The notes under the pieces are model-generated. The model was given only the letters and a program-made list of their open reading frames with translations, searched no databases and had not been told where the DNA came from. From assembly GCA_016788285.1 (NCBI GenBank), contig JAEUSW010000323.1, positions 1-36,122 on the forward strand: DNA of 36,122 nucleotides, given 5' to 3'. Numbering within the stretch: position 1 is the stretch's first letter; every line of letters starts with the position of its first letter. This DNA is from Flavobacteriales bacterium (GTDB lineage: Bacteria; Bacteroidota; Bacteroidia; Flavobacteriales_F; PHOS-HE28). The position numbers and the translations under genes are program-made. Below are positions 1 through 4,464 of the stretch, one piece after another.

Positions 1-93
1 GGCAAGATCTGGATACTTGCCTACGAGGTGATCACTGAAGGGAACCGAGGGAAGTGGCAGGTGAACCGTCCGCAGGAGAGGCTGAAGACCTAT

Positions 94-234
94 TCCCCTA
101 TTGGGACCTGCTGCTTCCTAGGTGTTCTGGGCTCAAATAGAAAACGAGGCTGCGGGCCTGTTAAAGTTCTGAAGCGTCGAACACCTGTTCTCGGCCCCTC
201 CAGGATCAATGGTCCAACCACAAAGAAAACGAAC
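94..234 (+). ncRNA. possible bridge (seek) RNA region of the IS110 element
   Basis: This is the non-coding stretch between the candidate left end and the transposase start. In IS110 elements the non-coding end encodes a bridge RNA that pairs with both target and donor DNA to guide recombination. In this element only about ten bases follow the transposase stop before the inverted repeat, so the upstream side is the only place large enough for such an RNA. One segment (94-102) is complementary to the right end at 1238-1246. Another (203-209) is complementary to 1248-1254, but a 7-base match is near chance level. No fold has been computed, so the exact RNA boundaries are unknown. Confidence 0.3.
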
Positions 235-1236
235 ATGAGGACTATCGGTATCGATGTAAGCAAGGCACACCTGGATGTGGCATTGCTTGACCAGCAAGAG
301 GGCTTCTTGGATGAAGTGAGCATCACCAACGAGCCGGCCGCACTGATCAAGTTGATACGTCGGTGGCTCAAGAATGAACGATGTCGACCTGACACTATCG
401 TGTGTATAGAACCTACCGGCCACTACAGCTTCTCGGCGATCAAGGCCTTACTGGAGGAAGGTGTACCAGTATGGTTGGCCCATCCGGCCGATATCCAAAG
501 CAGCATTGGCTTGCAACGGGGAAAGAGCGACCAAGTGGACGCACGTCGCATAGCACAATACGCCTTGCGGTTCCGCGACAAGGCCCAGTTGCTCGATGAT
601 CACTTCCTGCGGTTGCAGGAATTGAAAGACCTGCTCTCCCTACGCGAACAGTACGTGCGACAACGGGCTGCCATAAGGGTTCAGCAAGGCGACTATCTCA
701 ACGCCATACAGGGTCGGGCCAAGACCTGCTTCAAACGCGCTGCCCGTGAACTTACCGCTTCGTTGGAGCGCGCCATCCAAAGCGTCGAGAAGAGCATTGA
801 GGAGTTCATGGCAAGCGTGCCGGAGCTCAATGCGAAACGTGAGCTAGCGATGACCGTCACGGGCGTAGGCCCGGTACTGGCCAGTGAACTACTGGCCATC
901 ACCCGTGGCTTCACCCGGTTCGATGACCACAGGCAGCTGGTCTGCTATGCAGGACTGGCCCCTTATCCATATCGCTCCGGCACGAGCGTGCATGGCCCAA
1001 CAGCCGTGTCACATAAAGCCAATAAGCGCATCAAGACACTTGTCCACATGGCTGCTCTCAACGCCATCCGCTTGCCAGGCGACCTCCAGAGCTACTATCG
1101 GCGAAAGCGCGAACAAGGGAAACCGGCCATGAGCGCACTGAATGCCGTCCGCGCAAAGATCATCCGACACCTGTGGGCCGTCATGACATCCGGTCAACCC
1201 TACACACCCTTTAAAGCCGACTTGCAAATGCCATAG
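235..1236 (+). CDS. IS110-family transposase (DEDD recombinase)
   Basis: The 333-residue protein has the two IS110 domains. The N-terminal RuvC-like DEDD domain opens with GIDVSK and carries D7, E59 (IEPTG), D99 and D102 (KSDQVDARR). The C-terminal transposase_20 domain carries VTGVGP at about 208-213 and the serine motif SGTSV at 248-252, expected to supply the nucleophile used together with the DEDD site. A helical, coiled-coil-like linker lies between them (about 120-200). The frame stays open upstream to position 28, but ATG 235 is chosen because family members begin directly at the MxxIGIDVSK strand and the upstream stretch has no protein-like character. All catalytic residues and the full length are present, so the gene looks intact and possibly active. 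It runs away from the window start and converges on the S74 surface-protein gene. Confidence 0.93.
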   Translation: MRTIGIDVSKAHLDVALLDQQEGFLDEVSITNEPAALIKLIRRWLKNERCRPDTIVCIEPTGHYSFSAIKALLEEGVPVWLAHPADIQSSIGLQRGKSDQVDARRIAQYALRFRDKAQLLDDHFLRLQELKDLLSLREQYVRQRAAIRVQQGDYLNAIQGRAKTCFKRAARELTASLERAIQSVEKSIEEFMASVPELNAKRELAMTVTGVGPVLASELLAITRGFTRFDDHRQLVCYAGLAPYPYRSGTSVHGPTAVSHKANKRIKTLVHMAALNAIRLPGDLQSYYRRKREQGKPAMSALNAVRAKIIRHLWAVMTSGQPYTPFKADLQMP

Positions 1237-1321: not shown

Positions 1322-3475
1322 CTACCGCGCCACCTTCACGGCCTTCTTCACCACGAAGCTGTCGTTGAGGAACAGCGTGCAGTGGTAAGTGCCCGGCGCA
1401 AGATCGGTGGTGGTCCAGTCGTGGGTGTACGTGCCCACCTCGCGCACGGCCTCCTCGAGCACCTCCAGACGCTTGCCGCTGGCATCGCTGACCTCCAGGC
1501 GTGTGCGGCCCGGTGCGGCCACCGTGTAGCGCAGCTGCGTGAGGTCCGCCACCGGGTTGGGCAGGATGAACAGGTCGGTGCGCAGCGCTTCGCTTGCCCC
1601 TGCCCCTGCCCCAGCTCCTGAACCCATGGTGCGCTGGTCAGTTCTTTCGTTGGCCGTGCAGCAGTTCGCGAGGTCCTGCTGCATCGCGGCGAGTTGTTGT
1701 TGGAGCTGTGCGACCTGGTCTTGCAGAGCGGCCATCTGTGCGCCTTGTTCGTTGCTGGCCCCGACCAGCACCGGGATCAGCCCGCCGTAGTTCACGGCCT
1801 TGAAGGTCACCGCCGGTTGAAGGACGTTCCCCAACGAGTCGACCTCCGCGGGCTGGGTCACCGTTCGGACCAGACCGGGCAGTACGGCCTGAAGATCGCC
1901 GGCCATGATGCCATTGTGGGTGCCTTCCGGAAGACCCAGTTGGGGATAGTCCGCCGTCCTGAACTGGTAGCGCTTCGGTTGCAACTGGGCAAGAATGTCC
2001 GAAGCGTCGGTCAGATCCGTGACATTTTGCTTCAGCATCGCATCCGAGCTCTGCCACACACCGGCCGAATGAAAACCCGCGCCGACGAAATAGGCCGCCC
2101 AGCGATTGGGATAGTTCGTGTGCTGCGTGCTGCCATATACGCCGGCCAATAGGACTGCGCTGCTCGAGTCGCTCGGGGTGGTGTACACATAACCATGCAC
2201 GCCGAAACCCTTGGTGGTGGGCAGCCCGCTGCTGTTGCCTTTTACACCATACGCATTGGTGGCCTGCCCGGATCCGTTCTCCGTGTCCCCGTAGACACCC
2301 ATGTTGTCCGTGGTGGACTTGCCGGTGTTGAGCCAGCCGCGACCGTACACACCGTAGTTCTTCACGGCCCCGTCGTAGGCCCGCGTATGTATGCCGTAGT
2401 GCTCGTTGCCCGAGCTCTGGCCACTGGCGGTCTGCACCACGCACTTCAGCCCGATGTTCTCGGTGCCGTTGTTATCACCTTTCGTGTACACCTGGATCCC
2501 CAGGTCGTTGGACGAGGTATGGTTGCGCAGCACATCGAGCTTGGCCTCGGGCGAGCTGTCACCGATCCCTACGTTCTCGGCATCGTCGGGGCATGCACCG
2601 TTGGCCGCACCCACGGCTGTGTAGACGTGGTTCGGTGATGAGCCGTTCATCTGCCATTCGCAGTTGTCAGCAGCCACTGGTAGTGAACTCACTGCACGCC
2701 AATGCAAGCGCCCATCCGCATCCGTCACCACCAGGCGGTCCAACTGGCCATCCTCATAGTCCGGCACCAGCCTGCGGATCATGATCGTGCGGTCCAGCAC
2801 GTCCAGCCGCTCATCGGGCGTGGCGCTCTGGCCGAACCAATCGCCGATGCCCACGAACACCTCCGAACCGCTGTCGTGCGGGTAGAGCTGCATGGCCTCC
2901 AAGCCCTCCATGGAGTTGCTTCCCGTGGGGCTGGAACTGCTGTACTCCGAGGTGAAGATGAAGCGCATGCGATCGCTGAGCCAGGTGCCCGGGTTATCGC
3001 TCCACTGCACAATGGCATCGGTGTAGTCGTTCAGCTCACCGGATTCAGGCTCCTCGGGGTTGTCGTAGGTGTACTTCTGCCCGATGTACATCTGGTCGCT
3101 GTTGCCCGTGAAGGTGACGCCGTTGCGCATCCACGGCCGGTAGCCGATGCCCTGGAACCCGTTGGCACCGGGTTCTGCCAGATGCAGCCGACTGAAGGGG
3201 CCCGGCCCATTGTCCCAGAAATAGCTGCTGGGGCTGATACCCACGAAGCCCGATGTGGGGAGCAGACTGAAGCTGCCGATGTCGTAGTTGTCTTCCTGGT
3301 TCACCACCAACCGGACCTTGTCGTAGGTCCGAAGAGCAAGCCGCTCGGCATCGGTGGTCCCCAGGAAGTCAAGCGTGTAGTCGGTTGTTCCATTCCCCGA
3401 AAGGAGCCAAGGAGTCTGGGCCTCGGCGGCAATGGAACCAAGTATCAACGTTCCTGCGAAAACTGTCGTTCTCAT
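1322..3475 (-). CDS. T9SS-sorted surface protein with peptidase S74 chaperone domain
   Basis: A 717-residue secreted protein. A signal peptide (MRTTVFAG to AEAQ) is predicted to cleave before Gln20. The N-terminal half resembles tail-fibre-type beta proteins and includes repeated GVYG/GVHG segments around residues 380-460. A peptidase S74 intramolecular chaperone domain starts at about 476: S477, D478 and K482 reproduce the SDxxxK spacing of the self-cleaving endosialidase/tail-spike family. It is followed by a Gln-rich coiled coil (about 578-604), a Gly-Ala low-complexity linker and a type A T9SS sorting domain beginning at LPNPVADL near 638. The start at 3475 gives a standard signal peptide; an ATG at 3508 overlaps the upstream stop by four bases and would add eleven basic residues, so it cannot be excluded. 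It probably forms an operon with the gene at 3505-4464. In the family, S74 domains trimerise, help fold beta-helical fibres and then cut themselves off. Confidence 0.85.
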   Translation of the reverse strand: MRTTVFAGTLILGSIAAEAQTPWLLSGNGTTDYTLDFLGTTDAERLALRTYDKVRLVVNQEDNYDIGSFSLLPTSGFVGISPSSYFWDNGPGPFSRLHLAEPGANGFQGIGYRPWMRNGVTFTGNSDQMYIGQKYTYDNPEEPESGELNDYTDAIVQWSDNPGTWLSDRMRFIFTSEYSSSSPTGSNSMEGLEAMQLYPHDSGSEVFVGIGDWFGQSATPDERLDVLDRTIMIRRLVPDYEDGQLDRLVVTDADGRLHWRAVSSLPVAADNCEWQMNGSSPNHVYTAVGAANGACPDDAENVGIGDSSPEAKLDVLRNHTSSNDLGIQVYTKGDNNGTENIGLKCVVQTASGQSSGNEHYGIHTRAYDGAVKNYGVYGRGWLNTGKSTTDNMGVYGDTENGSGQATNAYGVKGNSSGLPTTKGFGVHGYVYTTPSDSSSAVLLAGVYGSTQHTNYPNRWAAYFVGAGFHSAGVWQSSDAMLKQNVTDLTDASDILAQLQPKRYQFRTADYPQLGLPEGTHNGIMAGDLQAVLPGLVRTVTQPAEVDSLGNVLQPAVTFKAVNYGGLIPVLVGASNEQGAQMAALQDQVAQLQQQLAAMQQDLANCCTANERTDQRTMGSGAGAGAGASEALRTDLFILPNPVADLTQLRYTVAAPGRTRLEVSDASGKRLEVLEEAVREVGTYTHDWTTTDLAPGTYHCTLFLNDSFVVKKAVKVAR

Positions 3476-3504: not shown

Positions 3505-4464
3505 TCACTTGATGAACCTGACGACCCTTCGCTGCCCACCCATGTACGCGATGACCGTGTACAGGCCTTGCGCCAAGCTGCTTGGAACCAGTACGCCACC
3601 CTCTCGGCTCTCGGATACGCGGGGCTGCCAGACCAACCGGCCGGCCGAATCAATGACCAACACGGAGCGCAAGGGTTCGCTGCTGATCCATCGGATCATC
3701 TCGGACGTCGCAGATAGCTCTGCATACCCTGCCAGCTGCTCCTCAACCGCCTCAGCATACAGCGGTACCACGGCCACCGCATCAATGTAGTAGTAGGCCT
3801 TGGGCTGTGGGAACAGGGGGGGCAGGTCGATGCCGTTCACTTGTGGGTCGTCCTGGAAGGTGCCGATCACCAGCCAGCGCTCGTTGCCTTGCGCCACTAG
3901 GGTGTCCGCCAGTTCGACCCAGTTCGTATCCAGCAGATAGGCGTTGTTCGGATCACGGAGCTGTATCTGCGGGCTGAACGGTAGCACCGTGGTGTGCGGT
4001 TCGTGAATACTATCCGGGCCGAAGTAGACACCGATGTGATCGATCGCGCGTCGGTGCCCTTTTGGTCGTGCACAATACAGGCTCACCCGGTAGCTTCTTC
4101 CGGCCTCGAGCCCGGCGATCAGCTTGGTGCTCAGGTAATCACGCGAGCTGCCAGTGCTGTCTGTCCCATACCAATGAAATCCGCCGGCCAATCGGCTCCC
4201 GTCGTATGCGGTCCTGTACCCCTTTGCCTGTATTCCAGTGTCCGTAGAGTCCATGAAGGTGCCACAAGGATCCACAGTATCGCAGTCGAAGATGTCCGGT
4301 GTGGCCAGGTTGGCGCTATACCAGCCGACCGCCTCCTCGTAAGGCGGTTGATACAGGGAGCAATGGGTGGTGTCCTCGAAGCTCGGGTTGGGCACGAGGT
4401 TCTGGGCCGTCGCCATCGCGGCGAGGGCCAGGTTCATCAAGTGAAGAAGGAATGCTCTGGGCAT
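3505..4464 (-). CDS. T9SS-sorted secreted protein, LVPNPSFE-type
   Basis: A 319-residue protein of unknown specific function. The signal peptide (MPRAFLLHL to ATAQ) is predicted to cleave before Gln21 and is followed at once by NLVPNPSFE. That opening is common in Bacteroidota secreted proteins with a galactose-binding-like (jelly-roll) domain. The middle region (about 90-225) has the strand pattern of such a domain, with lines such as YRVSLYCARP and WLVIGTF. The last ~75 residues form a T9SS sorting domain ending in VVRFIK, although the canonical PNP box is not evident. The start is supported by a rare Shine-Dalgarno match 7 bases upstream. The gene sits directly upstream of the S74 protein and is probably co-transcribed with it, so the two may act on the same surface structure; that is inference from position. 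Confidence 0.75.
   Translation of the reverse strand: MPRAFLLHLMNLALAAMATAQNLVPNPSFEDTTHCSLYQPPYEEAVGWYSANLATPDIFDCDTVDPCGTFMDSTDTGIQAKGYRTAYDGSRLAGGFHWYGTDSTGSSRDYLSTKLIAGLEAGRSYRVSLYCARPKGHRRAIDHIGVYFGPDSIHEPHTTVLPFSPQIQLRDPNNAYLLDTNWVELADTLVAQGNERWLVIGTFQDDPQVNGIDLPPLFPQPKAYYYIDAVAVVPLYAEAVEEQLAGYAELSATSEMIRWISSEPLRSVLVIDSAGRLVWQPRVSESREGGVLVPSSLAQGLYTVIAYMGGQRRVVRFIK

Follow-up and report, generated by a model that had tools for sequence, protein, structure and literature searches.

A Flavobacteriales fibre protein family with a putative self-cleaving S74 domain upstream of a T9SS sorting domain

The window, a stretch of 36,122 nucleotides from a Flavobacteriales bacterium, was found to carry on its minus strand a gene (1322-3475) that by translation encodes a protein of 717 amino acids, with the domain order signal peptide, beta-rich fibre, Peptidase_S74, coiled coil, Gly/Ala linker, and T9SS sorting domain (Table 1). 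Translation also confirmed the coordinates and residue numbers given for this protein in a first-pass annotation, and the series it had claimed (S477-D-x-x-x-K482, then a coiled coil, then a T9SS domain) was borne out by profile matches, heptad lengths, and sister copies. The invariant Cys605-Cys606 pair, the sister copies, and the partner gene were absent from that annotation. The partner, named here for its 'PNPSFED' family, has no Pfam domain of its own and has 11 matches in the genome, several of them away from detected S74 genes; a 'PNPSFED' gene lies directly upstream at 44 of the 61 loci having a readable upstream ORF, and several of these relatives have their own recognisable T9SS tail. 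At the other end of the fibre gene, an IS110-type transposase-like ORF (1-1236, plus strand; assigned by inspection) touches the contig start and is convergent with the fibre gene 3′ end.

Table 1. Features of the fibre gene and its partner in the window
Feature	Position	Strand	Basis or remark
Signal peptide, residues 1-20 (MRTTVFAGTLILGSIAAEAQ)	3416..3475	(-)	Read by eye from the translation
Beta-rich fibre/head, residues 21-444	2144..3415	(-)	Short strands; low-confidence model
VGIG....P..KL motif, residues 302-313	2537..2572	(-)	Resembles the MAT-fibre/MyRF capping-loop consensus (PMC10769870), by eye
S477-D-A-M-L-K482 dyad, predicted cut immediately N-terminal of S477	2030..2047	(-)	Alignment of 83
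Peptidase_S74/ICA domain, residues 477-575	1751..2047	(-)	PF13884 and PDB profile matches
Helix/coiled coil, residues 563-604	1664..1789	(-)	P568-C605 spacing; helix 563-608 in the model
Cys605-Cys606 at the coiled-coil end, predicted interchain disulfides	1658..1663	(-)	82/82; fixed heptad register
Flexible linker, residues 607-637, with GAGAGAGA	1565..1657	(-)	Aperiodic length, 17-43
T9SS type A sorting domain, residues 638-717	1325..1564	(-)	TIGR04183; sister copies; model
Partner gene, 319 aa, 'PNPSFED' family, weak T9SS tail	3505..4464	(-)	Upstream, first of the gene pair

The fibre/head region diverges among copies, and full-length structure prediction yielded a pLDDT of 38 and a fibre model that was unusable. 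Two sequence features of this region were shared with other proteins: (i) the opening, W.L.GN..FLGTTD, has a similar counterpart in S74 proteins of the same genome that are without a T9SS domain; and (ii) 43 of the 66 long ORFs of the family, the window copy among them, contain the VGIG....P..KL motif, which was detected in none of the shuffled sequences. The S74 domain was identified by a PF13884 (Peptidase_S74) match that spans residues 477-536 and starts exactly at S477-D-A-M-L-K482, with a score of 40.9 bits (cut-off 22) and an E-value of 2.5e-10. When the PDB was searched with the single window protein by phmmer no match was returned, and a family profile was required; this profile, built from 51 relatives, matched a long tail fibre (6f45, 4.5e-11), the MyRF ICA domain (7dc3, 1.5e-10), 8jov, and 3gud. 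We attributed to chance the additional PDB matches, which were to inositol kinase, parathion hydrolase, and PPR proteins. A monomer model of residues 432-717, with pLDDT values of about 50-65 in the S74 part and about 85 in the sorting domain, was related by Foldseek to 7dc3 (3.8e-4) and the endosialidase chaperone 3gw6 (3.3e-3), the S74 part being of moderate confidence. The Pfam search of the window protein found no Ndt80-like domain, the DNA-binding domain of MYRF, and the resemblance to MYRF is at most one in mode of working.

The sorting domain of the window copy scored just under the curated cut-offs (TIGR04183, 20.0 versus 23 bits; PF18962, 14.7 versus 27), while five sister copies of the same genome exceed the TIGR04183 cut-off. 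The PNP motif of this domain is invariant (81/81), the model is an Ig-like beta-sandwich, and the genome encodes about 143 T9SS sorting domains together with the PorU sortase (1197 bits). Judged by these profile matches and sister copies, the domain is most probably a genuine T9SS sorting domain. The dyad lies upstream of it, and therefore a cut before S477 would separate the fibre from its sorting signal, as the first-pass annotation had pointed out. Three loci (L085, L087, and L093) have deletions or truncations within the T9SS tail, which may represent decay or assembly error.

Between the S74 and sorting domains, the spacing from P568, where the helix begins, to C605 was found to be 23, 30, 37, or 44 residues in 32, 37, 9, and 4 proteins, respectively (37 in the window copy), such that all 82 spacings equal 2 modulo 7. 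The linker that follows the Cys pair displays no heptad periodicity in its 17 to 43 residues. On a quick tree the coil switches length class at least 25 times, a figure that exchange between copies may inflate. Hydrophobic residues are enriched at two of the heptad positions (85% and 62% LIVM), and Cys605 occupies one of them. As read from these changes in length by whole heptads, the coiled coil is genuine. The Cys605-Cys606 pair is present in 82 of 82 family proteins but was detected in only 2 of the 120 S74 proteins of a phylum survey, both with a T9SS tail. The simplest reading of this arrangement is a trimeric coiled coil with a putative interchain disulfide lock, positioned C-terminal to the predicted cut.

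The window genome encodes ten S74 domains. Six of its loci share the same C-terminal part, of which four include the S74 domain (with the open frame shortened in one of these, at C235) and two are broken by contig ends. Across the family, identity within genomes versus between genomes is 85% versus 53% for the sorting domains and 48% versus 42% for the S74 domains; copies of the window genome share 93% identity in the sorting domain and 44% in the S74 domain. At the DNA level, tails within one genome are about 88-96% identical. This homogenisation of the sorting domain looks like concerted evolution via gene conversion or 3′-end exchange. Near-identical tails joined to diverged S74 domains within a genome were observed at L011, L013, L014, L018, L019, and in the window at 1325-1564, and contigs often break in this repeat. 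A different arrangement was noted at L015 (G000:C45), where four tandem S74 fibre genes have the S74 domain at the extreme C terminus without a T9SS tail; in the one that was fully read, a signal peptide is visible.

With the C-terminal part of four copies as query, we searched 45 genomes of the family and aligned 83 S74 regions; the phylum was surveyed through a sample of 296 Bacteroidota genomes. The C-terminal profile was matched in 44 of the 45 group genomes (in some by the sorting domain alone), and in the Bacteroidota sample an S74 domain followed by a T9SS-type tail occurs in no fewer than six further families; the tails of L264, L209, and L182 are above the curated cut-off and the others below. 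Thus, S74-T9SS is a recurrent architecture rather than a peculiarity of a single gene, and we rejected the idea that it is a one-off or a relic of a phage.

The aligned S74 regions revealed strong conservation of the dyad and of two further residues: Ser477 is kept in 82 of 83 and Asp478, Lys482, and Gly522 in all 83, while the residue preceding Ser477 varies freely and neighbouring columns are variable. Loss of S477 or K482 in homologues with a T9SS domain had been named by the first-pass annotation as evidence that would count against cleavage; with Ser and Lys kept to this extent, there is no decay of the dyad where a T9SS domain follows. The single replacement of the catalytic Ser is by Cys, at L153 (PCDESLK). 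In MYRF, the residues S578, D579, K583, and G626 are reported as strictly conserved (PMC3742443), and the conserved Ser, Asp, Lys, and Gly522 of the fibre family form the same pattern. One residue counted against the predicted cutting in the window copy is Gly526, as most relatives have Gln there; alanine at the apparently equivalent Q639 of MyRF impaired, and did not abolish, cleavage (PMC8326128).

Proteins in which S74 has nothing to cut provided a natural control. S74 proteins read from the phylum survey were sorted into three groups, and the Ser and Lys pair was found in: (i) 14 of 14 with a T9SS tail; (ii) 100 of 100 that have an upstream region and no T9SS tail; and (iii) only 3 of 7 where the S74 domain directly follows the signal peptide, with the search profiles beginning at the Ser and thus biased toward copies that keep it. 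The difference between the cargo-free group and the two cargo-bearing groups had a Fisher p of about 2e-6 with relatedness ignored. Among all 197 cargo-bearing S74 proteins, one lacked the Ser and none lacked the Lys. The seven cargo-free proteins (L201, L203, L204, L205, L208, L210, and L213) are small and secreted, with nothing besides an S74-like domain behind the signal peptide; the dyad is gone in four of them while the fold positions (Gly, Pro, and coiled coil) persist. This comparison suggests that the dyad is maintained for cutting rather than for the fold. The first-pass annotation had also raised the option of a dyad that is retained solely to assemble the trimer; cargo-free S74 proteins speak against it, since they retain the fold residues yet often lose the dyad.

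Taken together, the domain order, the invariant dyad, its loss in proteins without cargo, and a coil quantised in heptads that ends in a Cys pair were observed by computation, and from these we infer the activity of the dyad, its exact site, the timing of the cut, the disulfide, and the fate of both fragments. The reading that we consider modestly probable is a trimeric fibre that is exported by the T9SS first and then cut by S74 at the dyad on the cell surface. The gene would be the second of a repeated two-gene module and would encode a trimeric Flavobacteriales fibre, whose trimerisation may be driven jointly by its heptad coiled coil and its S74/ICA domain; the Ser477-Lys482 dyad would then cleave the chain immediately N-terminal of Ser477. 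Transport through the outer membrane would depend on the far C-terminal T9SS domain, and the predicted order of events is (i) Sec export; (ii) T9SS export of the uncut chain, probably prior to trimerisation; (iii) trimerisation at the surface; and (iv) the cut. By this cut the fibre would be released from a C-terminal stub that comprises S74, coiled coil, Cys-Cys, linker, and perhaps the sorting domain; the stub itself would be a disulfide-locked trimer. This scheme would follow the logic of MYRF with the T9SS signal substituting for the membrane anchor. The export-first order is likeliest because the signal must remain attached to its cargo until export ends; a fibre cut any earlier would be left behind, as its sorting signal lies beyond the cut. 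The cut may in addition uncover the fibre tip, as the processed fibre of phage T5 alone competes for the receptor (PMC4690869) and exposure of a cleft via the cut has been proposed for Bd3182 (PMC10769870). More tentatively, S74 self-cleavage could serve as a sortase-independent release, with chaperone and export signal forming a disposable, disulfide-locked cassette that folds, exports, and frees the fibre at the surface with its tip exposed.

The timing of the cut relative to export is where the main rival departs from the export-first order. In the current view of the T9SS, cargo folds while still in the periplasm and is exported folded, with recognition of the C-terminal domain followed by PorU processing and anchoring or release (PMC10202324, PMC9251779). 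S74 cleavage requires a folded trimer (PMC8326128, PMC4690869). Since this cleavage is autonomous upon trimer folding and such cargo is believed to fold in the periplasm, a cut before export is possible. The requirements of export and cleavage could be reconciled if trimerisation, and with it the cut, waits until the chains have passed through the outer membrane. In the rival scheme, which we regard as rather unlikely, the trimer would instead form and be nicked in the periplasm, the fibre would stay noncovalently on the disulfide-locked S74 stub, and the three sorting domains would export the nicked complex. Such a route is consistent with the handling of folded proteins by the T9SS, with the phage S74 hairpins that embrace the fibre (PMC4690869), and with the invariant Cys-Cys, which would hold the stub together in transit; however, the T5 chaperone must leave after the cut and interacts weakly (PMC4690869), the MyRF ICA domain barely contacts its stalk (PMC8326128), and the three sorting domains of a trimer would probably be at odds with a translocon/PorV shuttle thought to take one cargo at a time.

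A dyad that does not cut is a further alternative and appears quite improbable. Here, S74 and the coil would only trimerise the protein, and once PorU had trimmed the sorting domain, the entire fibre, S74 included, would be anchored C-terminally. The covalently locked coiled coil does resemble a lasting stalk, PorU is at hand in the genome, and Asp and Gly are conserved to the same extent as the dyad, so that conservation may be partly structural. Yet the near-complete retention of Ser and Lys with cargo versus their frequent loss without it, in proteins that have the fold residues in either case, argues against this alternative, as do the substitutions S782A and S587A, which abolish cleavage in the relatives assayed (PMC10769870, PMC8326128). 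Finally, docking of the Cys pair to another envelope protein via disulfide exchange, in place of a trimer lock, is very improbable: twin-cysteine disulfides do link T9SS/gliding proteins (SprF/PorG) to GldK in Flavobacterium (PMC12635249), but in 82 of 82 proteins the fibre pair keeps to one heptad register and falls in the core of the coil, which fits an interchain trimer bond, and SprF and PorG partner on the periplasmic side whereas the fibre protein is a predicted T9SS cargo.

The first-pass annotation had proposed a distinct route for building a surface fibre, and this claim was found to hold in part. An internal S74 domain has a precedent in MYRF, where it lies between cargo and membrane anchor (PMC3742443), and cellular S74 fibres are known from Bdellovibrio (PMC10769870). 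Each of the parts has a precedent in phage fibres, Bdellovibrio, or MYRF, whereas in the open-access papers searched we found no description of an S74/T9SS fusion, nor of one with a cysteine lock.

Compared with phage S74/ICA fibres (endosialidase NF/K1F, T5 pb1, and GA-1 gp12), the protein shares the Ser-(Asp)-x-x-x-Lys motif and the conserved Gly and, as predicted here, the fold, a C-terminal triple coiled coil, and a beta fibre upstream; however, the phage S74 domain is the end of the protein and is discarded, whereas that of the fibre family is followed by the invariant Cys pair, the linker, and the export signal. MYRF/MrfA likewise has S74 in an internal position, preceded by a trimeric cargo and followed by a part that anchors the protein, with a cut that frees the cargo (here predicted), but its anchor is that of an intracellular eukaryotic membrane rather than a T9SS signal, and no cysteine lock is described in the MYRF text available, in contrast to the predicted lock at Cys605-Cys606. 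The Bdellovibrio MAT S74 subgroup has in common a cellular fibre, signal peptide, VGIG-like capping loops (by eye), SDxxxK, multiple copies, and a beta-helix (here predicted). Its member Bd3182 is cut at Ser782 of SDxxxK and displayed on the surface (PMC10769870), such that cleavage is demonstrated for Bd3182 and predicted here; the S74 domain of Bd3182 is terminal with no T9SS signal described, whereas here a T9SS domain follows. With T9SS type A cargo the protein shares the Sec signal, the C-terminal Ig-like sorting domain, and PorU in the genome, and differs in having a putative protease of its own between cargo and sorting signal. An autoprotease at this position would be self-defeating unless cut and export are ordered, and therefore these fibre proteins may serve as a timing marker for the T9SS: which fragment appears where would tell whether cargo trimerises before or after crossing the outer membrane. 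Widespread and multicopy, the fibre family joins phage-type fibre assembly and MYRF-type release, both as predicted here, to Bacteroidota secretion.
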